Assembly (NCBI RefSeq): GCF_021596945.1
Contig: NZ_CP063779.1
Location: 313,501-377,500, forward strand
Source of the DNA: Mongoliitalea daihaiensis
GTDB taxonomy: Bacteria; Bacteroidota; Bacteroidia; Cytophagales; Cyclobacteriaceae
Length of the DNA: 64,000 bases
Reading direction: 5' to 3'
The notes beneath the pieces were generated by a model that saw nothing but the letters and a program-made list of their open reading frames with translations, had not been told where the DNA came from and searched no databases. Below are positions 28,544 through 63,521 of this stretch, one piece after another. Every line of letters starts with the position of its first letter. Position 1 is the stretch's first letter. Both the position numbers and the translations under genes were made by a program.

Positions 28544-31500
28544 ATGAATCTCTTTCTAAAATCATTTTACGAGCCGTTCAAACAGTTGGTGATCTTGCTC
28601 TTTTTATTAGCACTTACTACACAGGCATATTCACAACGGTTGCGACCCCCATTTATCCCCCCTTCACTCGATCCCATTGAAAACCCAACTAATCCCCCTA
28701 CAAGTTCACCTTCATTGGTGGTTACCAATGGAAATAATTCTGGAGCGGGAAGTCTTCGTCAGGTAGTAGCAGATGCTCCCGCTGGTAGTATGATTACTTT
28801 TTCAGGAGTAACCACCGTAACCCTATCTACAACTGAGATAATTCTCAATAAAAACCTCACCATCAGTGGGGCCAACGAAGTGACGATCAATGGGGGAGGC
28901 AATTCAAGAATTTTCAACATTACAGGAAATCCCACAGTATCACTAAGAAATTTAACATTTACAAATGGACTAGAAGACTTGGGTGGGGCTATATTCAATA
29001 ATTCGTCCAACCTTGAAATTATCAGTTGTTTGTTTGAAAATAATCAGGCAAACCAGAAAGGAGGCGCAATTTACAATAACAATGCATCCCCCAGAATCAC
29101 CAATACTTTTTTCGCTGAAAACCATGTTATAGCAGTTGCCCCCCCTATAGTAGAATGTACAGCGGTCACCAATGTAACAAGAACAGTAAGCGCAAATACG
29201 CTTTCAGTCTTTTGGAGCCCTAGCCCTGCTGCGCTTTCATATACTTTTAACATTAGGGCTTCATCTGACACAGAATTTCTTCAATTCCAAGTAGATCAAT
29301 CTCTGAGTTCTATCAATCTTGAGAATTTAGTATCTTCAACCACCTATAGTTACTTTATCACTACAAATTGCGCTGATGGAGTAACAAGAAATACGGCTAC
29401 ATTCACCGTTACAACCAATGCATCGAGTGTTCCTATAGGTCCAGGTGCAGGTCGAGGTGAACCTATTGCTCCAGCAGTTAGGCTTATAAGTCCTAACGGT
29501 AGGATAAATAGCGCAGCAACCCAAGATTTCCTTGGTGGGGGAGCAATTTTCAACGATGGTTCTTCCCCAAGAATAGTGAACACGCTATTTTTCTCAAATA
29601 CAGTTTCCTCCACAGGTGGGCCATTGGGTGCAGCAATTCTCAATGTCAATGGTTCTAATCCACAAATCACAAATACCACGTTTGGTAGAAACCAAGTTCT
29701 AGGACCCAATAATCAGCCTATTTCGTCAGGTGCAACAAACTTTGGTACCATTGCGAATGATGACAATTCGGCATCTTCTATCACCAATTCCATTATTTGG
29801 GGCAACCCATCTGGAGGTATTGTGGGTCCCAATGGTACAGTCACCTTCTCAGCTGTGGAAAATGGTCCAACTGGTACGGGAAATCAAAACATCAACCCAC
29901 AGTTTGTAAGTCTTTCTTCAGGAGACTTACGCCTACAACCAACTTCTCCTTTACGTGATGCAGGAAATCCTTCAACAGACTTAAGTATATTCCCTGGGGG
30001 GACAGCTGAACCACTGGATTTTGACGCCAATCCTAGAGTAGTAGGAGGAATCATTGACATGGGCGCCTTTGAACTAGAGCTAAACCTTCAACCACAAACC
30101 ATCACTATCACGCCACCAACAGTTTTAATCTATGGAGATAGAGATGTTAGCTTTACTGCTACTACTACTTCTGGTCTTCCAGTGACTTATTCCGTTGAGA
30201 GCAATCCATTCATATCAGTTAACTCTGATGGAACTGGACTCAATGCCAATAGAGCTACGGCAACTCCGGTGACGATTACTGTATCTGTTGAAGGAAATTC
30301 ATCTTTTGAACCTGCCAGCACAACGTTATCACTACCTGTCCTCCAAAGACAACTGACCATTCCCCCGCCAATCATTAGCCCTAAAGTCTATGACGGCAAT
30401 ACATCTGCCGATATCACAATAGGTACCTTGGAAAACAAAGTAGCAAGCGACGTGGTAGACGTAAACGCAACGGGAACATTTGATAATCCTGACGCAGGTA
30501 CAGGAAAAACGGTCTCCGTAAGCTATGTAATCTCCGGAGCAGATGCAGGAAACTATATTACCCCGGTTGATTTTACCAGCACAGATGGGGTGATTACTCC
30601 AAGGCAGCTGACCATTACTCCGCCAAGCATTAGCCCTAAAGTTTATGACGGCAATACATCTGCTGATATCTTAATAGGCATCTTGGAAAACAAAGTACCT
30701 AACGATGTGATAGACGTAAATGCAACGGGAACATTTGATAATCCTAACGCAGGTACAGGTAAAACGGTCACGGTAAGCTATGTAATCTCTGGTGCAGATG
30801 CAGGTAACTACCTAACCCCTGTTGATTTTATCAGTACAGATGGGGTGATTACTCCAAGGCAGCTGACCATTACTCCGCCAAGCATTAGCCCTAAAGTTTA
30901 TGACGGCAATACATCTGCTGATATCTTAATAGGCATCTTGGAAAACAAAGTACCTAACGATGCAATAGACGTAAATGCAACAGGAACATTTGATAATCCT
31001 AACGCAGGTACAGGTAAAACAGTCACGGTAAGCTATGTAATCTCTGGTGCAGATGCAGGGAACTACCTAACACCTGTTGATTTTATCAGTACAGATGGGG
31101 TGATTACTCCAAGGCAGCTGACCATTACTCCGCCAAGCATTAGCCCTAAAGTTTATGACGGCACTACATCTGCTGATATCTTAATAGGCATCTTGGAAAA
31201 CAAAGTACCTAACGATGTGATAGACATAAATGCAACGGGAACATTTGATAATCCTAACGCAGGTACAGGTAAAACGGTCACGGTAAGCTATGTAATCTCT
31301 GGTGCAGATGCAGGGAACTACCTAACCCCTGTTGATTTTATCAGCACAGATGGGGTGATTACCCCGAGAGACTTATTTATTACTCCTTTCGAGGGACAAA
31401 GAAAAGCGCAAGGATCAGAAGACCCTGAGTTGGCATTTGAAGCAATTGGTTTCGTTGTAGGTGAAGATAACTCCATTCTTACAGGACAACTCGGAAGAGA

Positions 31501-37638: not shown

Positions 37639-38523
37639 TTACTCATATCGGATTTCGAAATAATTCAGTATCGCTTTAAAATTATCCTGAGCCGTCAAAC
37701 AAGTATCCCTTAGGAATTCTTTGATTTGGGGCCACTCTTGTAGTCCTCGATAATAAAAAAACTTAAGGTTCTCATCGATAATGAAAGGAACAACTTGGTT
37801 AGCCAAACACTCCTTGAACATAATCAATCTCCCAACTCTGCCATTCCCGTCCTGAAAAGGGTGTATCATTTCAAACTCATAGTGAAAGCCGATGATGTCT
37901 TCAAGTGTTTTTTTGGGATTTCTATGATAAGACTGAAGTAACTCATTCATCCTAGACGCAACCTCCTTTGGAGGACAGGTTTCGTTGCCTCCAACTTCGT
38001 TGGGAAGTAGTTTGTATTCCCCTACATTGAACCAATTCTTGGAACTATCCGAAGTGCCTGTTTTTAGAAAAAAGTGGAGCTGCTTAATAAATGACTCTGA
38101 TAACTTTATGTGTGCCTTATCAATCATTAAATCAATGCATCTAAAATGATTTGTTGTTTCAATGATATCGTCCACATTGATACTTTCTGAAAAAGCACCA
38201 ATAGTATTGGTTTCAAAAATAAACCGTGTTTGGTCTTGTGTAAGTTTACTGCCTTCTATCCTATTTGAGTTATATGTCAATTCTACCTGTACCTTGTGAT
38301 AAATCCCCCCTTTCAACTTCATTTCTTTTTGCTCCCTCAAGATATCCAGTAAGGTATTGGTACTTTTCTTTTTTGTAAGCGTGATTTTTGAATCTTCGGG
38401 AATATTCCATGTTTTCCCTGTCAAAAAGGCTCCTTTAATCTTCCCATTGGCACAATAATGCCTTACCGTTCTTGGGGATAGCTTATTCAGCTTGGCAAAC
38501 TCATTGACTGAAATATAGTTCAT
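37639..38523 (-). CDS. Fic-family AMPylator/nucleotidyl modifier with N-terminal DNA-binding domain and inhibitory motif
   Basis: The 294-residue protein starts MNYISVNEFAKLNKLSPRTV, a MerR/excisionase-like helix-turn-helix of about 60 residues. The Fic domain has the complete catalytic motif HPFQDGNGRVGR (H221 onwards). The N-terminal inhibitory helix motif S-x-x-x-E-G (SNRIEG, 86-91) marks class II Fic proteins, in which the Glu blocks ATP until relieved. Fic proteins usually transfer AMP onto target proteins; the target is unknown. The ATG at 38523 was chosen over 38562 because a palindrome and -7 box lie between them. The DNA-binding domain plus flanking palindromes suggest autoregulation. 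Confidence 0.9.
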   Translation of the reverse strand: MNYISVNEFAKLNKLSPRTVRHYCANGKIKGAFLTGKTWNIPEDSKITLTKKKSTNTLLDILREQKEMKLKGGIYHKVQVELTYNSNRIEGSKLTQDQTRFIFETNTIGAFSESINVDDIIETTNHFRCIDLMIDKAHIKLSESFIKQLHFFLKTGTSDSSKNWFNVGEYKLLPNEVGGNETCPPKEVASRMNELLQSYHRNPKKTLEDIIGFHYEFEMIHPFQDGNGRVGRLIMFKECLANQVVPFIIDENLKFFYYRGLQEWPQIKEFLRDTCLTAQDNFKAILNYFEIRYE

Positions 38524-38534
38524 ATGGATGTTTT

Positions 38535-38602
38535 TTGCCGTTATCGGCAAAAAACTTTTCAAATATAAAAAATTTGTTTGATGTTATTGCCGATAAAGGC
38601 AA
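38535..38602 (-). promoter_or_regulatory. fic promoter bracketed by two matching palindromes
   Basis: On the minus strand, TTGCCGATAACGGCAA (38550-38535) and TTGCCTTTATCGGCAA (38602-38587) share the half-site TTGCC/CGGCAA. Their centres are 52 bp apart, about five helical turns. Between them TATATTTG (38567-38560) matches the TAnnTTTG -7 box, placing the start of transcription at the edge of the first palindrome. That palindrome extends outward with T/A runs to 24 bp (38531-38554). This is the layout expected for cooperative or looping autorepression by the Fic protein. Confidence 0.7.
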
Positions 38603-38682
38603 TGATAACCATGATATTTCAGCGAAAAGCTACCAGGGATATATAGTCCATTGGCAGATCCTAATTATTACCGTTAATCAGA

Positions 38683-38912
38683 AAGCAAGGTCTCTTCAAT
38701 ACTAAACTAAGTATAAAAACCCTGCCCTGAAAAGACTGCAATTTCTACAAAGATTCACCCTACCCTGAAAGGGCAATACAACAAACTCACTATGAGTTAA
38801 TCCATCCACCTCCTGCCCTGAAAGGGCAGCACAACAATAACCACGGGTCTCGACCCGTGGCAATAGCCACTACATAAAATCTGCCCTGAAAGGGCAGCAC
38901 GAGCACTCACTA
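38683..38912. repeat. Outlying block of the palindrome mosaic, downstream of the first thioredoxin-fold gene
   Basis: Contains three H1-type hairpins (CTGCCCT-GAA-AGGGCAG or variants) near 38760, 38812 and 38881-38897, one H2 palindrome (CCACGGGTCTCGACCCGTGG, 38841-38860) and an ACTCA-CTA-TGAGT hairpin near 38786. The left 130 bp closely match 40437-40580, so the thioredoxin-fold gene 38914-40254 is flanked by direct repeats. The last H1 ends 16 nt before that gene's stop codon. Confidence 0.85.
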
Positions 38913-38913
38913 C

Positions 38914-40254
38914 TTAAAGCAACACATAATTCCTCAAAGAAGTCTGCCAATCCAAGTCCATCGGCAATTCTATAAATTTACCTTCGGGGGTAATCAGCAT
39001 TTTAGTAGGGTATTTTGAGATGCCCAAGGTCTCCTTCAATTCATTGGAGATTTCACTTACAGGAAATGTATATCCATTTTTTTTCATGAATCCTCCCAAG
39101 TTCCGGGACATATAGGAAAGCGTATATATTTTCAAATTGCTTGTGGAGTTGAGCAAGTTGTCGGCATAGAAGGGCTGAAAATTTGGTAGATCTTTCACAC
39201 ATGGAGCACACCAAGTCCCCCATACATATACATAGGTCCAATGATCTTTTGGTGTAGCCAAGTCCAATACTTCACTTTCAAAAGGTATACTTACTGAGGG
39301 GAGGTCTGTAGCTTTGCTAGTGATAAACTCCCTCCAAAACGTTTCAAATGATGCCTCTTCCCCATGTTGGTTGGCAAAACGTTCTTTCAATGCTTTAAGA
39401 TTAGCATCCGTTGGTTGCATGAACACAAATTCAGCTAACAATTCGATGGGAGCTGTATCATCGCTGTTTTCTACCAAATAGGCTTGATACTTACTCCTAA
39501 AACCTACAGGAACCCCATTGAATCCTGTTAATAGCAAGCCATCATGATAGGCACTATAGCTATTGAGTAAATCGAACTCATCTAGGCTAAATTCAGCTGC
39601 ATTCCTTAGGTATTCCTCTTTTTCCTCTATATATGAAAACAGATAATCATATGCATAGGCAAGTAGAAATCGATTGGAAGCCCGCGTTCTGTATTCCAAG
39701 TGATCTTCTGGTATTTCCACTAGATAGGGATATGCTTCTAGCCGAGCAATATTGTTGGCTACAACTTGTTTTTTGAAATCCTCAGATGCAGCATTATTCT
39801 TTACTAACTCCTGAAGTGTCAATTGAGCGTAGCGTTCCAACTTCCCGTATTCATGAAAATTCTCTTTCTGTAACCTGAGCAAATCTTCCCTGATCAAGGC
39901 ATATTCTTCTTGGTCTTGTGCTGCAACAGCCCTTCCCCATAAATAAAGCGGTTCAAGTGCTTCTTGTTGATTGGGATCTACCTTTCCCCATAGTGCTTCC
40001 AAATAATCCCACCAATACCGATTTTCATCTTGTTGGATCAACCTAACTAATCTGTCATGCGTGGTACTGTAGAAAAAGCTCTCACGTTGCCCATATAGCC
40101 CCTCGGATTTTTTTACGGCCTTTTCAGTTTGTCCTTTTTCCCAAGCTCGCTCTACAGCAGCAGAGGTTTTGGCAATTTGTTTAAAAGTCTGACCCCAAAC
40201 TACTTGAGTAGAAGCCAACAAGACGCAAACAAGTATTCCAATTAGTTTTATCAT
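38914..40254 (-). CDS. Secreted thioredoxin-fold (TlpA-like) protein, copy 1
   Basis: The 446-residue protein has a signal peptide (MIKLIGILVCVLLASTQVVWGQ). About 310 residues follow of an unrecognised, mostly helical region rich in aromatic and acidic residues. The C-terminal thioredoxin domain has the redox pair WCAPC (C349, C352), a long insertion-free core (FMKKNGYTFPVSEIS) and the cis-proline in SKYPTK. It probably acts as a periplasmic or surface thiol oxidoreductase. A paralogue of the same architecture lies at 44205, across the palindrome array. An H1 hairpin lies exactly 16 nt beyond the stop of each copy. Confidence 0.85.
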   Translation of the reverse strand: MIKLIGILVCVLLASTQVVWGQTFKQIAKTSAAVERAWEKGQTEKAVKKSEGLYGQRESFFYSTTHDRLVRLIQQDENRYWWDYLEALWGKVDPNQQEALEPLYLWGRAVAAQDQEEYALIREDLLRLQKENFHEYGKLERYAQLTLQELVKNNAASEDFKKQVVANNIARLEAYPYLVEIPEDHLEYRTRASNRFLLAYAYDYLFSYIEEKEEYLRNAAEFSLDEFDLLNSYSAYHDGLLLTGFNGVPVGFRSKYQAYLVENSDDTAPIELLAEFVFMQPTDANLKALKERFANQHGEEASFETFWREFITSKATDLPSVSIPFESEVLDLATPKDHWTYVYVWGTWCAPCVKDLPNFQPFYADNLLNSTSNLKIYTLSYMSRNLGGFMKKNGYTFPVSEISNELKETLGISKYPTKMLITPEGKFIELPMDLDWQTSLRNYVLL

Positions 40255-40436
40255 ACATACAACACTATCGATTACCTAAAAAAACACAAATCGTGTTTTT
40301 AAAATTGGTTGATAGACGATAGATTACCTCGTTGAGTTTTAGAAAACTCCAAAAAAAATTAAAATTACCAGAAATAGTTAAAACGAACTTGTAGTCCATA
40401 AGCCGATCCTTTGTATTGCTACTAATCCTAGGCTCC
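40255..40436. other. Upstream region of thioredoxin-fold copy 1
   Basis: A/T-rich, with the presumed promoter of the leftward gene; no repeat palindromes until 40437. No confident -33/-7 pair was found. Confidence 0.4.
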
Positions 40437-43400
40437 GAAGAAAGCAAGGTCACTCCGATACTAAATTAAGTACAAAACCCTACCCTGAAAAGACTGCAAT
40501 TTCTCCAAAGCTTCTCCCTGCCCTGAAAGGGTAATACAACATACTCACTATGAGTTAACCCTTCCTCCTCCTGCCCTGAAAGGGAAGCACTATCTCCACC
40601 AACCTATCTAAAGATCTTCACCGCACACAGAGAGCTAGTACAAGCCCTACAGGCTTGGCCAATACTGCACATTCTCCAGAACCACGGGTTTTGAAAACCC
40701 ATGGTTACTATTGTAAAACCCTTTCCAAGGGTTCTTAGTCATGAATTAACAAACTAAGAGAAACCTTGAACGTTCTCTTTGGACTCCTTAATTTTCCTAG
40801 AAATTCAAAAATCAATAATTCAACCTGAATTGAAACTTAACTAAGAAAAATAAAGGAATTCCAGCTTCTCCCTGCCCTGAAAGGGCATCACAACAGTAAC
40901 CACGGTTCTCGACCCGTGGCTAAAAGTAACCAATACACTACCCAGCCCTGAAAAGCTGCAATTTTTCCAAAGCTACACCCTGCCCTGAAAGGGCAACACA
41001 ACAATAACCACGGGTCGCGACCCGTGGAACAAGCGAAAGTCTCACTTGGTCTGCCCTGAAGGGGCAGCACTATCTCCACCAACCTATATAAAGATCTTCA
41101 CCGCACACAGAGAGCTAGTACAAGCCCTACAGGCTTGGCCTATACCGCACATTTTCCAGAACCACGGGTTTTGAAAACCCATGGTTACTATTGTAAAACC
41201 CTTTCCAAGGGTTCTTCCCCATAAATGACTTTGATTAAAATACCCTTTTACTCAATCGCTCCTCCAACTTTCGTCGAAAATGAGAAGCCCATAATTCAAA
41301 TAATAGAAACTTTTCTCAAAATGAACCTTGAGTAACAAATTCTCCCTGCCCTGAAAGGGCAACACAACAGTAACCACGGGTCTCGACCCATGGATCAAGC
41401 GAAAGTCTCACTTGGACTGCCCTGAAAGGGCAGCACTAAAAACAGATAGTACATTCAATCACACAACATATACTTTTCATCAAATGAAACTCCATGCTCA
41501 TCTAATAATCTCTTGTATTCATCATAAAAGGACTCCTTTCGATGATGTATCTTTTGATTTTTTATATATTGAATAACAGCTGATTTCTCCTTAAAGCTTA
41601 CAGTAAAACTACCATATCCACTCCGCCACCCTTTGAAGTTTCTAACTTCTGGATGCTCTTTTAGCCAATCGCCTGCTGCTCTTTTTAACCCTTTTATAAA
41701 ATCAGCTAAACATATACTAGGGTGAATATCTGTTAAAATATGAATATGATCTTCTGTACCATTGATTTGGTAAAGTTTACAGTTTTTATTTTTCGTAAAT
41801 CCCCAGATATACTTGTATAAGTCTAGACAATATTTGTCTGGAATTACACGTTCATTGGACTTTGTTCCAATGATTATATGATAGAAGTTTTGTCGATAGG
41901 AGCTCATAAGTCGATTTTTTTATCTAAAATAAACTAAAGGCTATTGAGCCCCAAAAAACTAACTGAACTTAAGTACTTAATTTCATTAAGTGTCATAAAA
42001 CATACTCAATATGAGTTAAGGTAAGCACCTCTTGCCCTGAAAGGGCAAAAGGCAACATAACAGTAACCACATATATCAACCCATGGCTAAAAGTAACCAA
42101 TACATTACCCTGCCATGAAAAGCTGCAATTTCTTCAAAGCTTCTCCCTGCCCTGAAAGGGCAACACAACAGTAACCACGGGTCGCGACCCGTGGATCAAG
42201 CGAAAGTCTCACTTGGTCTGCCCTGAAAGGGCAGCACTATCTCCACCAACCTATCTAAAGATCTTCACCGCACACAGAGACCTAGTACAAGCCCTACAGG
42301 CTTGGCCTATACCGCACATTCTCCAGAACCACGGGTTTTAAAAACCCATGGTTACTATTGTAAAACCCTTTCCAAGGGTTCTTAGTCATGCATTAACAAA
42401 CTAAGAGAAACTTTGAACGTTCTCTTTGGACTCCTTAATTTTCCTAGAAATTCAAAAATCAATAATTCAACCTAAATTGAAACTTAACTAAGAAAAATAA
42501 AGGAATTCCAGCTTCTCCCCGCCCTGAAAGGGCAACACAACAGTAACCATGAGTCTTGACCCATGGCTAAAAGTAACCAATACATTACCCTGCCATGAAA
42601 AGCTGCAATTTCTTCAAAGCTTCTCCCTGCCCTGAAAGGGCAACACAACAATAACCACGGGTCGCGACCCGTGGATCAAGCGAAAGTCTCACTTGGTCTG
42701 CCCTGAAAGGGCAGCACTATCTCCCCCCACCTAATTGAAAATCTTCACCAAACTCAAAGAGCTAGTACAAGCCCTACAGGCTTGGCCTATACTGCACATT
42801 CTCCAGAACCACGGGTTTTGAAAACCCATGGTTACTATTGTAAAACCCTTTCCAAGGGTTCTTAGTCCTGAATTGATAAATTTAGAGCAACCTTGAACTT
42901 TCTTTTTGGCCCCTTAATTTTCATCGAAATTCAAAAATCAATAATTCAACCTAAATTGAAACTTAACTAAGAAAAATAAAGGAATTCCAGCTTCTCCCTG
43001 CCCTGAAAGGGCAACACAACAATAACCACGGGTCGCGACCCGTGGATCAAGCGAAAGTCTCACTTGGTCTGCCCTGAAGGGGCAGCACTATCTACACCCA
43101 CCTATTTAAAAGTTTTTACCAAACTCAAAGAGCTAGTACAAGCCCTACAGGCTTGGCCAATACTGCACATTCTCCAGAACCACGGGTTTTGAAAACCCAT
43201 GGTTACTATTGTAAAACCCTTTCCAAGGGTTCTACCCCATAAATAACTTTGATTAAAACACCCTTTTACTCAATCGCTCCTCCAACTTTCGTCGAAAATG
43301 AGAAGCCCATAATTCAAATAATAGAAACTTTTCTCAAAATGAACCTTGAGTAACAAATTCACCCTGCCCTGAAAGGGCAACACAACAATAACCATGGGTC

Positions 43401-44203
43401 GCGACCCGTGGATCAAGCGAAAGTCTCACTTGGTCTGCCCTGAAAGGGCAGCACTATCTCCATCAACCTATCTAAAGATCTTCACCGCACACAGAGACCT
43501 AGTACAAGCCCTTCAGGCTTGGCCAATACTGCACATTCTCCAGAACAACGGGTTTTAAAAACCCATGGTTACTATTGTAAAACCCTTTCCAAGGGTTCTT
43601 AGTCATGCATTAACAAACTAAGAGAAACTTTGAACGTTCTCTTTGGCCCCTTAATTTTCATCGAAATTCAAAAATCAATAATTCAACCTAAATTGAAACT
43701 TAACTAAGAAAAATAAAGGAATTCCAGCTTCTCCCTGCCCTGAAAGGGCAACACAACAATAACCACGGGTCGCGACCCGTGGATCAAACGAAAGTCTCAC
43801 TTGGTCTGCCCTGAAGGGGCAGCACTATCTCCAGCCACCTATTTGAAAATCTTCACCAAACTCAAAGAGCTAGTACAAGCCCTTCAGGCTTGGCCAATAC
43901 TGCACATTCTCCAGAACCACGGGTTTTGAAAACCCATGGTTACTATTGTAGAACCCTTTCCAAGGGTTCTACCCCATGAATAACATTGATTAAAATACCC
44001 TTTTACTCAATCGCTCCTCCAACTTTCGTCGAAAATGAGAAGCCCATAATTCAAATAATAGAAACTTTTCTCAAAATGAACCTTGAGTAACAAATTCACC
44101 CTGCCCTGAAAGGGCAACACAACAATAACCACGGGTCTTGACCCATGGCTAAAAGTAACCAATGCACTACTCTGCCCTGAAAGGGCAGCACTAGCACCCA
44201 CTA
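40437..44203. repeat. REP-like palindrome mosaic with seven 145-bp composite units
   Basis: The array is built from a few hairpins: H1 CTGCCCT-GAA-AGGGCAG; H2 CCACGGGTCGCGACCCGTGG; H3 AAGCC-CTACA-GGCTT; H4, about 27 nt, with arms AACCACGGGTTTT and AAAACCCATGGTT; H5 AACCCTT-TCC-AAGGGTT; and a weaker CAAGCGA...TCACTTG. A core from TATCTCCACC to AAGGGTTCT holds H3, H4 and H5 and occurs at 40591-40735, 41071-41215, 42238-42382, 42718-42862, 43089-43233, 43455-43599 and 43826-43970, exactly 145 bp each time. Cores are joined by tail T1 (units 1, 3, 4, 6) or T2 (units 2, 5, 7), then H1-H2-H1. Periods are 366, 371 or 480 bp, the last with a 109-bp insert. Unique spacers are absent. Confidence 0.95.
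41455..41907 (-). mobile_element. IS200/IS605-type HUH (Y1) transposase inside the palindrome array
   Basis: The 150-residue protein is a full-length Y1 transposase: HUH motif H54-I-H56 in TEDHIHILTD, catalytic Tyr114 in VIQYIKNQKIHH, and the family tail VSFDEKYML. Such enzymes cut single-stranded DNA next to hairpins, and relatives called RAYTs maintain REP palindromes. No TnpB gene is present. The left boundary falls right after an H1 hairpin at about 41437, the position where a 145-bp core would be expected. The right-hand region (about 41985-42140) returns to degenerate array modules. It is therefore a good candidate for the enzyme behind the array, though simple insertion of an IS200 element cannot be excluded. 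Confidence 0.88.
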
Positions 44204-44204
44204 C

Positions 44205-45539
44205 TCACAACAACACATAATTCCTCAGATAACTTTGCCAATCAAATCCAAATGGAATAATCACATAATTCCCTTCTGGAGAAATCAGTATCTTGGTGGG
44301 GTAACCTTGGATACTTAACACCTCGGTCATATCATGTGTAATCTCACTGACAGGGAAGTCATAGCCATTTTTCTTCATGAAACCTTGCAGATTTCTTGAC
44401 CCAAATGAAAGTGTATAAATTTTCAACTTTTCATTTGTTGCTTCTAAATTATTAGCATAAAATGCTTGAAGATTCGGTAAATCCTTGACACAAGGACCGC
44501 ACCAGGTACCCCACACATACACATAGGTCCAAGAATCCGATGTCTTGGCAAAATCCAACACTTCTGTTTCAAACGGGATACGGACTCTTGGAATAGGCCT
44601 CCCCTTGCTGTGAATATAATTCTCCCAATACTGAGCAAAAGACTCCTCATTACCTGAGTTGTCGTAGAATACTCTCAATGAAGCCATATTGGCATCCGTA
44701 GGCGCTGAGAAGGTTAATTCGGCAAGCATCTCTAAAGTTACTTTTTCTTGATCATTGGCTAATAAAAATTCCTGATACTTGGCTTTATACCCAATTTCTT
44801 TGGTATTGCCTGTAAGTAATAAAGCGTCATAAAAATAGGCTCCACGATAGGCTTGATCGTTTAAATCTGGGCTGTAATCCCCGGCTTTAGCAAGATAATC
44901 AGCACGTTGCTCTACATGAGAAAATAAAGTCGCATAACTACTCGCAATCATATAGCGTTTCCATGCACGGTTTTCCCCCTTTTTACGATCGGTTGTGACT
45001 TCGTAAATCCAAGGATCAGCCGTCAATCGCTGGATGTTTTTCTCTAAAATAGTTTGGGTTGTAGCTTGATCAATTGCCTCTTTTTTAATCAGGTCTTGCA
45101 AAATAAGGAGCACATATAACTCAAAACGGGAAATATCTGGTTGATATTCCTGTTGCATTTGGATCAACTCCAGCTGTATGCTGGCTAATTCCTCAGCATC
45201 TCTTGTGGGTAAAACTCTGCTCCAAAACAACATAGGTTCAATAAGTTGATTGACCTCTACATCATCCAATGCATATAATTGCTCCAGATAATTCAATCCA
45301 ACTTGATTGTTCTGTTTCTTAATCTTTTGTGCTAAATCAGCATGAATTCTATCGGCAAACATATCCTTGTCAATAGCATACAGGTCTATAGAATTCTTAA
45401 CCGCCTTCTCAATCTTTCCCTTCTCCCACAAATCATCCAAGGAATTCGACAAGCGCATAGCTTTTATGATTGACTGAGCATTTGCAGCCAATACAAAAGC
45501 CAAAAAAAACAACATCATGAGAGTAACATGTTTCTTCAT
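44205..45539 (-). CDS. Secreted thioredoxin-fold (TlpA-like) protein, copy 2
   Basis: The 444-residue protein has a signal peptide (MKKHVTLMMLFFLAFVLAANAQ), an N-terminal region of about 310 residues and a C-terminal thioredoxin domain with WCGPC (C347, C350) and cis-proline GYPTK. It aligns along its length with copy 1 at 38914. The thioredoxin domains are the most alike (VKDLPNxQxFYAxNL, FMKKNGYxFPVSEI, RNYVLL at the end) and the N-terminal halves clearly diverged. The H1 hairpin 44172-44188 lies 16 nt past the stop, as in copy 1. Redox partners are unknown; no DsbD homologue is visible here. Confidence 0.85.
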   Translation of the reverse strand: MKKHVTLMMLFFLAFVLAANAQSIIKAMRLSNSLDDLWEKGKIEKAVKNSIDLYAIDKDMFADRIHADLAQKIKKQNNQVGLNYLEQLYALDDVEVNQLIEPMLFWSRVLPTRDAEELASIQLELIQMQQEYQPDISRFELYVLLILQDLIKKEAIDQATTQTILEKNIQRLTADPWIYEVTTDRKKGENRAWKRYMIASSYATLFSHVEQRADYLAKAGDYSPDLNDQAYRGAYFYDALLLTGNTKEIGYKAKYQEFLLANDQEKVTLEMLAELTFSAPTDANMASLRVFYDNSGNEESFAQYWENYIHSKGRPIPRVRIPFETEVLDFAKTSDSWTYVYVWGTWCGPCVKDLPNLQAFYANNLEATNEKLKIYTLSFGSRNLQGFMKKNGYDFPVSEITHDMTEVLSIQGYPTKILISPEGNYVIIPFGFDWQSYLRNYVLL

Positions 45540-45910
45540 CTACATCCAATTAAAGGTAAAAGAAATGAACGAATCCAACTAACTATCAGCCATTAACAAA
45601 CCTGACTTCCCAATTGATACGCACTAAAGTTATTAAAGTTACCTTTAAAAATAGTTACCCGCAACATCAAAAAAACAAAAACTAAAAAATCTTAACTGAT
45701 TGTCCGTAGTAGGTTAAAACCCACGTATATGAATCAGAAGATACTCATTTTTTCTCGGGTTAAAACCCGGGGCAATTGATGGAGCTAAGTAGCTGAATCT
45801 CAATTTATCTCTTATGGTACAAATTTTTCTGCGTCTTTTGTGAATTCTGCGAGCTTACTCGCTTCATCCTTCCAAATTTTTCCGCGAATTCCGTACCTTC
45901 AGCGAGCCTC
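45540..45910. other. Intergenic region with GGGTTAAAACCC hairpins and a degenerate phrase
   Basis: No gene is seen. GTAGGTTAAAACCCAC near 45709-45724 and CTCGGGTTAAAACCCGG near 45757-45774 are short hairpins related to H4 of the array. From 45822 to 45905 two degenerate copies of a TTTTTCnGCG...TTCTGCGAG phrase occur. Confidence 0.5.
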
Positions 45911-47188
45911 CTAGAATCCCCCCTGCATCAACATCAACACCAAGGCATGCTGAATCGCCAAGTATCCATCTTTGTTAATCCAAAATTCATCCAAACTATG
46001 CACGCCTCCTCCGATTCCTCCTCGACCAATGGTTACAGCGGGAATACCCTTGGAAAATGCAATATTGGCATTAGTAGAACCTGCACTGAGTATGGGATCA
46101 TTTCCAGAAAGGAATTTAGCTGCTGCCATGACCTGTTGGATAAGTTCGGTGCTCGGATCAGCAGTCCCGGATGGCCTGTCGCCCACTTTTTCTACTTCGA
46201 GCGTTAAGGGAGTTCCTCTGCGGATGATATCATTTTCTTGTTTCAGCCCTTCTTCCATGGCTTGTAAAAACAGCTGATTGATTCCTTGCAAGCGTTCCTG
46301 ACTTTCGGAGCGCATATCAACCAACATCCACGATTCGTAAGGAATTGAATTGACTGAAGTACCTCCCCCTAAAACCGAGACACTGTAAGTGGTTTTTGGA
46401 CCAGACTTGGTAAAAGTATCGGCTTGAGGAACAAATGCTGCCACTGCTTTCGCCAAGGCATTATGAGGATTTCCAATACCAAAGGCGCCATAAGAATGTC
46501 CTCCAGGTCCTTTAAAGGTGACTTTGTAACGAATGGAGCCAATTCCTGCATTCACAATATCCTCCACCGCGCCACCATCGATGGCAATATGTGCAGCCAA
46601 GGGATGCGCTCCCTCTCTAAATAAATGTTTCATTCCCAACAAATCTCCTAGTCCTTCTTCCCCGACGGTACCACCAAACCAAATATCGTGAGTAGTTCTA
46701 ATATTTTTCTCATGCATGGTCTTGAGCAAAGCCACCACCACAGCCAAAGCACGGTTTGCATCAGAAATTCCTGGAGCAAATAGCGTATCTCCTTTTTGCT
46801 TGACGATCACATCCGTGCCAAATGGAAAAACCGTATCCAAATGTCCCTCCACCAAAATGGTTTTGGTCGAGTTGGTCCCTTTTCTCAACGCAATCACATT
46901 TCCAACTTCATCGGTCCACACCTCATCTGCGCCTGCTTGACGCAACATCTCCATAAACACTTTCCCTTTGGCCGCCTCATGAAAAGAAGGGGATTCAATC
47001 TCCGTCAAGGTAATCATATCGGCTATTGTCTGCGCATCAATCTCATGGATATAGGCAAAGGCCTCTTGGACACGGGTATCCTTTACAAGTGCTTCAACTT
47101 TCTGAGTGTATACAGGCTCAATCTTCTGCGCAAAAAGCAAAGGAGTGTGTAGAAATGCTAACAGTGATAAAACAAGCAATCGATTCAT
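45911..47188 (-). CDS. Secreted M20-family metallopeptidase
   Basis: The 425-residue protein has a signal peptide (MNRLLVLSLLAFLHTPLLFAQ). The M20/M25/M40 fold shows the zinc site LVEGHLDTVFPFGTD, the DANRALAV stretch, the catalytic glutamate in TVGEEGLGDLLG, and the C-terminal GGGVHSLDEFW. The dimerisation domain is present near 240-350 (GPGGHSYGAFGIGNPHNALA). Family members hydrolyse peptides or N-acyl amino acids; the substrate is not predictable. It stands alone. Confidence 0.9.
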   Translation of the reverse strand: MNRLLVLSLLAFLHTPLLFAQKIEPVYTQKVEALVKDTRVQEAFAYIHEIDAQTIADMITLTEIESPSFHEAAKGKVFMEMLRQAGADEVWTDEVGNVIALRKGTNSTKTILVEGHLDTVFPFGTDVIVKQKGDTLFAPGISDANRALAVVVALLKTMHEKNIRTTHDIWFGGTVGEEGLGDLLGMKHLFREGAHPLAAHIAIDGGAVEDIVNAGIGSIRYKVTFKGPGGHSYGAFGIGNPHNALAKAVAAFVPQADTFTKSGPKTTYSVSVLGGGTSVNSIPYESWMLVDMRSESQERLQGINQLFLQAMEEGLKQENDIIRRGTPLTLEVEKVGDRPSGTADPSTELIQQVMAAAKFLSGNDPILSAGSTNANIAFSKGIPAVTIGRGGIGGGVHSLDEFWINKDGYLAIQHALVLMLMQGGF

Positions 47189-62752: not shown

Positions 62753-63521
62753 GAATGGTTTCAAAAATTCCTCATTTAACTACTAATGTCACAATGGTAG
62801 GAAAACCATTAAGAAATTGAGGAGCATTAAGAGAAAACTTGAAAAAGGCTTAATTCACTTAATACCTTAATGGTTATAAAAAATCTCATTCAACTACTAA
62901 TGTCACAATGGTAGGAAAACCATTAAGAAATTGAGGAGCATTAAGAGAAAACTTGAAAAAGGCTTAATTCACTTAATACCTTAATGGTTATAAAAAATCT
63001 CATTCAACTACTAATGTCACAATGGTAGGAAAACCATTAAGAAATTGAGGAGCATTAAGAGAAAACTTGAAAAAGGCTTAATTCCCTTAATACCTTAATG
63101 GTTATAAAAAACCTCATTCAACTACTAATGTCACAATGGTAGCGAAACCATTAACAAATTAAGGAGCTTTAAAAGAAACCTCGAAAAAGGCTTAATTCCC
63201 TTAATACCTTAATGGTTTCAAAAATTCCTCATTTAACTACTAATTTCCCAATGGTAGGAAAACCATTAAGAAATTAAGGAGCTTTAAAAGAAACCTCGAA
63301 AAAGACTTAATCCCCTTAATACCTTAATGGTTATAAAAAACCTCATTCAACTACTAATGTCACAATGGTAGCGAAACCATTAACAAATTAAGGAGCTTTA
63401 AAAGAAACCTCGAAAAAGACTTAATCCCCTTAATACCTTAATGGTTTCAAAAAAACCTCATTCAACTACTAATGTCACAATGGTAGGAAAACCATTCAGA
63501 AGTTATGGAGCATTAAAAGAG
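62753..63521. repeat. Seven tandem 114-115 bp repeats with an internal 10-bp inverted repeat
   Basis: The marker AATGTCACAATGG (AATTTCCCAATGG in copy 5) begins at 62785, 62899, 63013, 63127, 63242, 63356 and 63471, so periods are 114, 114, 114, 115, 114 and 115 bp. Each complete unit carries AACCATTAAG (62804-62813 in copy 1) and its inverse CTTAATGGTT (62866-62875), able to form a hairpin around 52 nt. Copies 1-3 are nearly identical; 4-7 form a second subgroup (AAGGAGCTTTAAAAGAAACC). There is no reading frame. The strip 62655-62752 before it holds a CAGTCGTCGGTCGACAGTCA palindrome-like phrase. Confidence 0.93.

Follow-up and report, generated by a model that had tools for sequence, protein, structure and literature searches.

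The question raised by this locus is whether an array of hairpins and the small transposase gene that lies inside it belong together. The window (the whole stretch of 64,000 nucleotides that was analysed, positions 313,501 to 377,500 of NZ_CP063779.1, a single 4.82-Mb contig of Mongoliitalea daihaiensis) contains seven repeat units at 40494-44028 and, among them, a gene for a Y1 HUH protein, an arrangement that the original prediction compared to REPtrons, in which a Y1 HUH gene is embedded in its own repetitive extragenic palindromes (REPs). The locus is probably a REPtron-like system of the TnpA subclass 1.2, in which the encoded protein of 150 aa would be the single-strand endonuclease cognate to a three-hairpin cassette. 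This reading, and with it the proposed REPtron-like organisation, is carried by the anatomy of the cassette, its association with the gene across taxa (it recurs beside homologues in many genera), a guide-like tetranucleotide, strand-specific folding, dispersal through genomes and the co-occurrence of gene and cassette in two families.

The open reading frame at 41455-41907 (minus strand) codes for a protein that matches Pfam PF01797 (E 9.8e-21, 74.6 bits) and also passes the cut-off of the NCBIfam IS200/IS605 model NF033573 (57.8 bits; cut-off, 55). It contains the motifs DHIH, W94 and Y114-IKN-Q-KI-HH, and all 26 sequences of an alignment share residues D53, H54, H56, W94, Y114, H121 and H122. 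Homologues were compared at the best 80 of 548 homologous loci, all in named genomes, and 75 of these 80 further loci have the strict Y...Q..HH signature. Judged by motif and length, the protein is a member of TnpA subclass 1.2. Seven sequences of solved structures match it at E<=0.01, the best being the IS608 transposase (2a6m, E 7e-7). Its own genome holds three homologues including the window gene, the other two being 38% and 26% identical to the window protein.

Start-to-start spacings of the seven units are 480, 1167, 480, 371, 366 and 371, so that the predicted periods of 366, 371 and 480 bp were recovered, and the spacing of 1167 is the site of the Y1 gene. The gene is surrounded by 19 cassettes, 12 on the plus strand and 7 inverted. 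Each cassette, of about 90 nt, is composed of hairpin A, an AT-rich linker of 11-13 nt that terminates in RTAR, hairpin B, a spacer of 20-25 nt and hairpin C; in the left type of the window A is TGCCCTGAAAGGGCA, the linker ends in ATAA or GTAA, B is CCACGGGTCGCGACCCGTGG and, about 23 nt further, C is CTGCCCTGAAAGGGCAG. The second half of a unit is an inverted, diverged module (C' CAAGCCCTACAGGCTTG, B' with CCATGGGT and A' AACCCTTTCCAAGGGTT), and a complete unit thus consists of a doublet A-B-C / C'-B'-A', whose halves are about 52 nt apart, and a tail. The six or so hairpin types that had been proposed reduce to a single three-hairpin cassette in two versions, A-B-C and, inverted, C'-B'-A'. 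The fixed core exists, as a gap-free block that reaches from hairpin C through hairpin A' in 7/7 units (90-97% identical), although its length is 163 bp and not 145 bp.

A covariance model made from left-type cassettes only (R1, 19 sequences) recognises 20 modules in the window (E<1e-6), 13 on the plus strand and 7 on the minus strand; 19 belong to the array and one lies at 38812-38898. On the plus strand, A-B-C cassettes of the left type lie at 40979-41068 (106.8 bits), 41345-41434 (104.8 bits), 42146-42235 (108.4 bits), 42626-42715 (107.5 bits), 42997-43086 (107.3 bits), 43363-43452 (105.4 bits) and 43734-43823 (107.0 bits), and a last one at 44100-44189 (95.4 bits), at the 3' end of a TlpA-like gene (44205-45539). 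In the cassette at 42626-42715, hairpin A occupies 42628-42642 and is followed by RTAR, B (42655-42674) and C (42698-42714). Two extra, diverged cassettes, at 40871-40959 (70.6 bits) and 42518-42606 (63.4 bits), make the two 480-bp units, and two more are degenerate, at 40517-40588 (39.8 bits) and, on the 5' side of the gene, at 42031-42126 (33.5 bits). The inverted, right-type cassettes C'-B'-A' lie on the minus strand at 40640-40735 (48.2 bits), 41120-41212 (39.5 bits), 42287-42382 (46.0 bits), 42767-42862 (46.9 bits; the doublet partner of 42626-42715), 43138-43230 (41.5 bits), 43504-43599 (43.0 bits) and 43875-43970 (49.7 bits). The single cassette at 38812-38898 (plus strand, 93.2 bits) adjoins the other TlpA-like gene (38914-40254) at its 3' end, beyond the interval that had been described originally. 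The cassette at 41345-41434 adjoins the gene's stop codon with its hairpin C (41417-41433) toward the gene, 21 nt away, and the transposase block does therefore begin in register, as predicted, since the remainder of a unit would be expected at that hairpin C.

Perfect stems of at least 7 bp cluster in the array, whose two 2-kb bins have 8 and 13 of them compared with 0-4 in each of the window's 30 remaining bins, and the single-stranded DNA of four cassette strands of the window folds with z scores from -5.0 to -6.8 (-5.6 for 42626-42715 and -5.8 for its partner at 42767-42862). Covariation inside the window family is weak, with two-sided changes at 2 pairs. An Rfam search of the array matched no family, and the same search of nine loci gave two tRNAs and nothing else.

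The two kinds of tail that join the cores, T1 (40734-40870, 42381-42517, 42861-42996 and 43598-43733; four copies, 90-98% identical) and T2 (41214-41344, 43232-43362 and 43969-44099; three copies, 96-98% identical), had been considered unrelated, which they are not: T1 and T2 copies align with 69-72% identity and the first T1/T2 pair outscores 500/500 letter shuffles, indicating that they are diverged relatives. The array contains a 737-bp block of two units twice, with 94.7% identity between the copies, neighbouring units being only 87% and 85% alike, and the two 480-bp units share 93.5% identity. Cores fall into two types (units 1, 2, 3 and 6 versus units 4, 5 and 7), each of which is combined with both tail types (4/4 combinations), and recombination between units must therefore have occurred. 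Tandem duplication plus recombination between units is sufficient for the array, unequal crossing-over or gene conversion being enough, and the module-wise copying that had been preferred over tandem duplication is not needed. Two other tandem repeats are found in the window, a 114-bp unit at 62754-63520 (6.7 copies, 92% matches) and a 255-bp unit at 30341-31362 (4 copies, 94% matches). The evident duplication of the 737-bp dimer could also be taken to mean that the array is just a local tandem palindrome repeat, unrelated to the transposase gene, an explanation that is extremely improbable given the dispersed copies, the recurrence of the cassette beside homologues in other genera and its co-occurrence with the gene.

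Recurrence beside homologous genes was analysed at those 69 of the 80 loci that have 800 nt on either side of the gene. At least two recurrent hairpins are present in the 800-nt flanks of 54 of these 69 genes, compared with 41 cases among 1220 control windows taken on the same contigs. Side-by-side reading of some loci identified the A-linker-B-spacer-C module in Lunatimonas, Cyclobacterium, Sunxiuqinia, Chryseobacterium and others. A strict detector finds a cassette at 42/80 loci (115 cassettes near the gene, in 182,429 bp, vs 7 far from it, in 839,154 bp), and a tolerant one, which allows one mismatch in B, finds a cassette less than 1.2 kb from the gene at 50/80 loci (126 near, 11 far). Per non-coding length, there are 127 cassettes in 60,615 bp near the gene and 11 in 140,262 bp far from it, about 27 times denser near the gene, with cassettes counted by position, so that individual ones may overlap coding DNA; flanks resampled from a Markov model (one version each) contain none. 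Three cassette-bearing loci are outside Bacteroidota, in Cloacimonadota (L113), Neomarinimicrobiota (L126) and Calditrichaeota (L132), and at four others outside this phylum (L124, L153, L158 and L162) neither detector finds a cassette. Cassettes are present around the gene in both orientations, mostly inverted relative to each other: the nearest upstream one runs A-B-C in the direction of the gene in 29/36 loci (29:7) and the nearest downstream one is inverted in 37/41 loci (37:4). Since many Bacteroidota have this layout next to related transposases, it appears to be a distinct version of the known REP-palindrome systems.

The tetranucleotide directly 5' of hairpin B was studied in 70 distinct cassettes among the 115 of the strict detector, once duplicates from the same locus had been discarded together with cassettes in which the middle hairpin starts otherwise than with CC, CT or AC. 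RTAR occupies this position in 51/70 cassettes from 29/36 loci (ATAA 24, ATAG 22, GTAG 4 and GTAA 1), compared with 0-7/70 at seven other offsets and 2/70 before hairpin C. Imperfect B stems contain, on the RTAR strand, G.T pairs in 20/26 cases and A.C in 2/26 (several of them from related loci of the Chryseobacterium group), so that the RTAR-bearing strand is the one whose fold is maintained. The linker sequence follows protein similarity across 35 loci (Mantel r 0.31, 0/5000 permutations), as shared descent would also produce.

The cassette and the transposase gene co-occur. In the 148 genomes of the window's family group, a homologue (E<=1e-10) was found in 83 and R1 matches in 46; 43 genomes have both, 40 the homologue only, 3 the cassette only and 62 neither (p 8e-11, or 4e-10 without the two genomes that served as model sources). 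A second model of the Chryseobacterium type, R2, was searched in 148 genomes around a Chryseobacterium (G151), of which 36 have both, 47 the homologue only, 2 the cassette only and 63 neither (p 3e-9, or 1e-7 without six genomes that had already been examined, four of them model sources). Hairpins of this type are therefore not common in genomes without a related Y1 gene. Genomes that have cassettes without a homologue at E<=1e-10 include G127 with nine copies, G283 with five and G196 with four, which could possibly reflect loss of the gene and persistence of the cassettes.

Nor is the cassette confined to the locus, a result that the original prediction had made decisive, since it is dispersed both in its own genome and in other genera. 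Matching genomes have 1-29 copies, the maximum of 29 applying to the genomes searched, with stricter filters (in the R1 search of the family group and in the R2 search) that may miss weak copies. The own genome has 28 R1 matches, and nine of the 24 listed are outside the window, near 1.750, 1.769, 2.168-2.175 and 3.844 Mb. In 21 other genomes (a typing that excludes the own genome and its congener G020), at least 36 among the 100 matches listed are within 3 kb of a listed homologue, and in Flavobacteriales there are 2-29 copies in 12/12 genomes, ten of them being sources of model sequences. In Chryseobacterium, many of the dispersed cassettes listed lie no more than a few hundred kb from the gene and most share one direction, as in G153:C1 at 36-230 kb and similarly in G154, G159 and G149.

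Where the dispersed copies lie brings in RNA. Leaving aside gene-adjacent copies, neighbours in the same stretch, some further listed copies and the doublet at G151:C2:119-120 kb (the site of a broken second gene copy), dispersed cassettes are intergenic in 110/111 cases (60/60 in 11 genomes of the Chryseobacterium group and 50/51 in 13 of the family group). The gene 5' of such a cassette is on the same strand in 55/59 cases in the Chryseobacterium group (55:4) and 35/49 in Cyclobacteriaceae (35:14), where cassettes also prefer convergent over divergent gaps (15:3; background 67:65). Targeting of the lagging strand, an expectation from IS608 biology, was abandoned as a general rule, because the bias of the Chryseobacterium group (GC skew positive on the cassette strand at 52/60 copies) is missing in Cyclobacteriaceae (26/51). 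The placement described, together with the G.T wobbles that maintain the sense-strand fold, would be expected if cassettes were mainly RNA elements, three-hairpin motifs within 3' untranslated regions or between operon genes with a role in mRNA processing or stability, and if the HUH gene had spread them formerly or merely occupied a hairpin-rich spot. As the main explanation this is unlikely, since it does not account for the roughly 27-fold density of cassettes per non-coding base beside the HUH gene, their co-occurrence with it, the REP-like RTAR foot, the two orientations near the gene and the lack of an Rfam match. An RNA role of the sense-strand hairpins is compatible with the HUH link, and has to be taken as a serious rival or companion of the REPtron-like reading. 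The same sense-strand placement (55:4 and 35:14) suggests a combined version, in which a second, separately evolved domestication of a Y1 HUH protein, on the class 1 side, would maintain sense-strand three-hairpin cassettes just downstream of genes, the enzyme capturing or copying them on non-template single-stranded DNA exposed by transcription and the host using the hairpins in mRNA; we propose it tentatively, as a rather improbable reading.

A different possibility is that the locus is an ordinary IS200/IS605 insertion sequence (IS) with decayed or internally deleted copies, and that the hairpins are its left and right ends. The transposase of IS608 as closest solved relative, the score above the cut-off of the IS200/IS605 model, the two cassette sub-types that bound the gene and the resemblance of A-B-C/C'-B'-A' doublets to deletion derivatives all fit this idea, as does the presence of gene and array in a neighbouring slot in G020. 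In the own genome the gene order is peptidase, TlpA-like 2, array and gene, TlpA-like 1, single cassette and Fic (window 37639-47188), and in G020 (L202, G020:C6:177000-187500) the peptidase is followed by what remains of TlpA-like 2, then by the single cassette, TlpA-like 1, array and gene, and Fic; array plus gene and single cassette have thus swapped neighbouring intergenic slots, a change that may be due to recombination between cassettes, to differential loss or to mobilisation. Doublets also differ between these genomes: one at 1750 kb is common to both, one at 1769 kb of the own genome is missing from G020, and one at G020 C13 5.4 kb is missing from the own genome. Both presence/absence junctions fall in direct repeats of 139-152 bp that belong to another palindrome family, which ruled out the comparison as an empty-site proof of transposition.

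In IS200/IS605 elements the two ends lie on one strand with a single hairpin each, and identical copies are many. Their hairpins act on one strand, whereas here the cassettes on either side of the gene are inverted relative to each other (29:7 and 37:4), with three hairpins per end. Among the matches listed, the near-identical second copies that were checked are local tandem duplications of gene and cassettes (G053, L338, 99% over 1.5 kb; G145, L339, 96% over 1.0 kb; G107, L337, and G096, L340, 90% and 86%, respectively, over 1.5 kb), and one dispersed gene pair (G064) lacks DNA similarity. The homologue search did not find a second similar copy of the window gene in its own genome, and subclass 1.2 is described as generally lacking typical IS200 ends (PMC6006769). 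An ordinary insertion sequence is consequently quite unlikely.

Several observations weigh against a REPtron-like system. Cassettes are present without a homologue at E<=1e-10 in five genomes (3/46 and 2/38 of the cassette-bearing ones), and G127, with its nine cassettes, has no homologue even at E 1e-3. Conversely, four genomes (R1) and three (R2) with close homologues have no match to the respective model; at three of the four R1-negative close homologues (L031, L034 and L039) other hairpins adjoin the gene. The tolerant detector finds no cassette at 30/80 loci, and 15/69 loci lack a recurrent hairpin pair. The sequence of hairpin B tracks the protein weakly (35 loci; Mantel r 0.15, 185/5000), and both co-occurrence and Mantel statistics ignore kinship between genomes. 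Since the junctions mentioned above lie in direct repeats, recombination accounts for presence and absence of the doublets as well as transposition does. Copy numbers of 1-29 are also far from the hundreds of REPtrons, classical REPs exceeding 100 copies per genome (Nunvar 2010, PMC2817692).

If the REPtron-like reading is correct, the protein would bind, cleave and mobilise the cassettes. By analogy with GTAG-REPs and IS608, it may bind the folded hairpin B on the RTAR-bearing strand, with RTAR serving as guide or foot motif and Tyr114 performing the cut, and cassettes or A-B-C/C'-B'-A' doublets would occasionally be joined at new intergenic sites, the array itself being enlarged via tandem duplication and recombination between units. 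The gene would then be retained for a function of the cassettes, either useful to the host or selfish. A subclass of HUH proteins listed without REPs appears in this way to possess a palindromic partner of its own, which, if true, means that each side of the TnpA tree has given rise to REP-type systems. The system is a natural comparison for the co-evolution of guide tetranucleotide and hairpin with the enzyme, the A-linker-B-C module with RTAR provides substrates directly testable in vitro, and the sense-strand placement downstream of genes makes the question of REP host function testable in a new phylum.

The other Y1 genes of the own genome each have a different hairpin set. The related gene that is 26% identical (L021, 3653162-3656497) has its own array of CCGAGGGT/CAACGGGT hairpins, with a period of about 245 bp and the foot motif CTAG, and the hairpins of this 3.65 Mb gene, CCGAGGGTTGAAACCCTCGG and CAACGGGTTTTAACCCGTTG, show a three-hairpin order that matches A-B-C. 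The homologue at 2.78 Mb (L020, 2782203-2785547) forms with L048, L050 and L053 a divergent clade whose layout differs and was observed only on the downstream side of the gene (TGACCTC..GAGGTCA, CATGTTTATAG, CGACCCC..GGGGTCG, CTATAAACAT and TGATCCC..GGGATCA). At 2.70 Mb (L023, 2697905-2701165), a YIHHNP-type Y1 gene is accompanied by ATTGCAAAT-centred palindromes and GGGGATTGCAAATCCCC-type hairpins; palindromes of this kind flank the dispersed doublets at 1.750 and 1.769 Mb and coincide with the presence/absence junctions.

Among known systems, the closest in layout are the REPtrons (TnpA_REP/RAYT, REP-associated tyrosine transposases, of classes 2.2, 2.4 and 2.5, with their REPs, bacterial interspersed mosaic elements or BIMEs, and REPINs), with which the locus shares a Y1 HUH gene embedded in its own intergenic palindromes, inverted pairs, a tetranucleotide at the 5' foot of a hairpin, a palindrome set specific for the gene and copies elsewhere in the genome. 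It differs from them in that the window protein belongs by motif to class 1 (Y---Q--HH, here Y114-IKNQKIHH) and not to class 2 (Y---NP), in that three hairpins at fixed spacing form the unit, where REPtrons have a single hairpin or an inverted pair, and in the foot, which is mostly ATAA or ATAG (GTAG in 4/70) and falls outside the GT[AG]G rule. IS200/IS605 elements (IS608, ISDra2) share with it the catalytic domain and, according to the account in PMC8266576, the recognition of a hairpin with a 5' guide tetranucleotide, as does TnpA_REP, which binds a hairpin with a GTAG foot; they are unlike it in having their ends on the same strand, while cassettes here are inverted around the gene upstream and downstream, and in the near-identical full copies at unrelated sites, which were found neither in the own genome nor among the five pairs checked elsewhere. 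Subclass 2.6 (RAYT group 5) resembles it in being from Bacteroidetes, in the 'atypical secondary structures' that flank the gene, in genome copies and in lacking a strict GT[AG]G, although its proteins are of another class (YIH[QN]NP), and no A-B-C layout was noticed in the hairpin list of the own YIH[QN]NP-type gene at 2.70 Mb. REPs or atypical hairpins have already been recorded for subclasses 2.4 and 2.6 in Bacteroidetes (PMC6006769), so that the comparable layout in another phylum that had been claimed is not new as to the phylum, although it is as to the subclass. Subclass 1.2 was described in 2018 from Cyanobacteria and Bacteroidetes as having low copy number, generally no IS200-type ends, the signature Y---Q--HH, about 148 aa and DH[IV]H (Quentin et al. 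2018, PMC6006769), and the window protein agrees with this description in signature, length (150 aa), DHIH, low copy number with diverged copies and taxon. No description of REPs for this subclass was found in the open-access literature searched, and the REP column of Table 1 in that paper, whose automatic REP search relied on the GT[AG]G rule, gives 'no' for it (PMC6006769), whereas 50/80 such loci have cassettes here.

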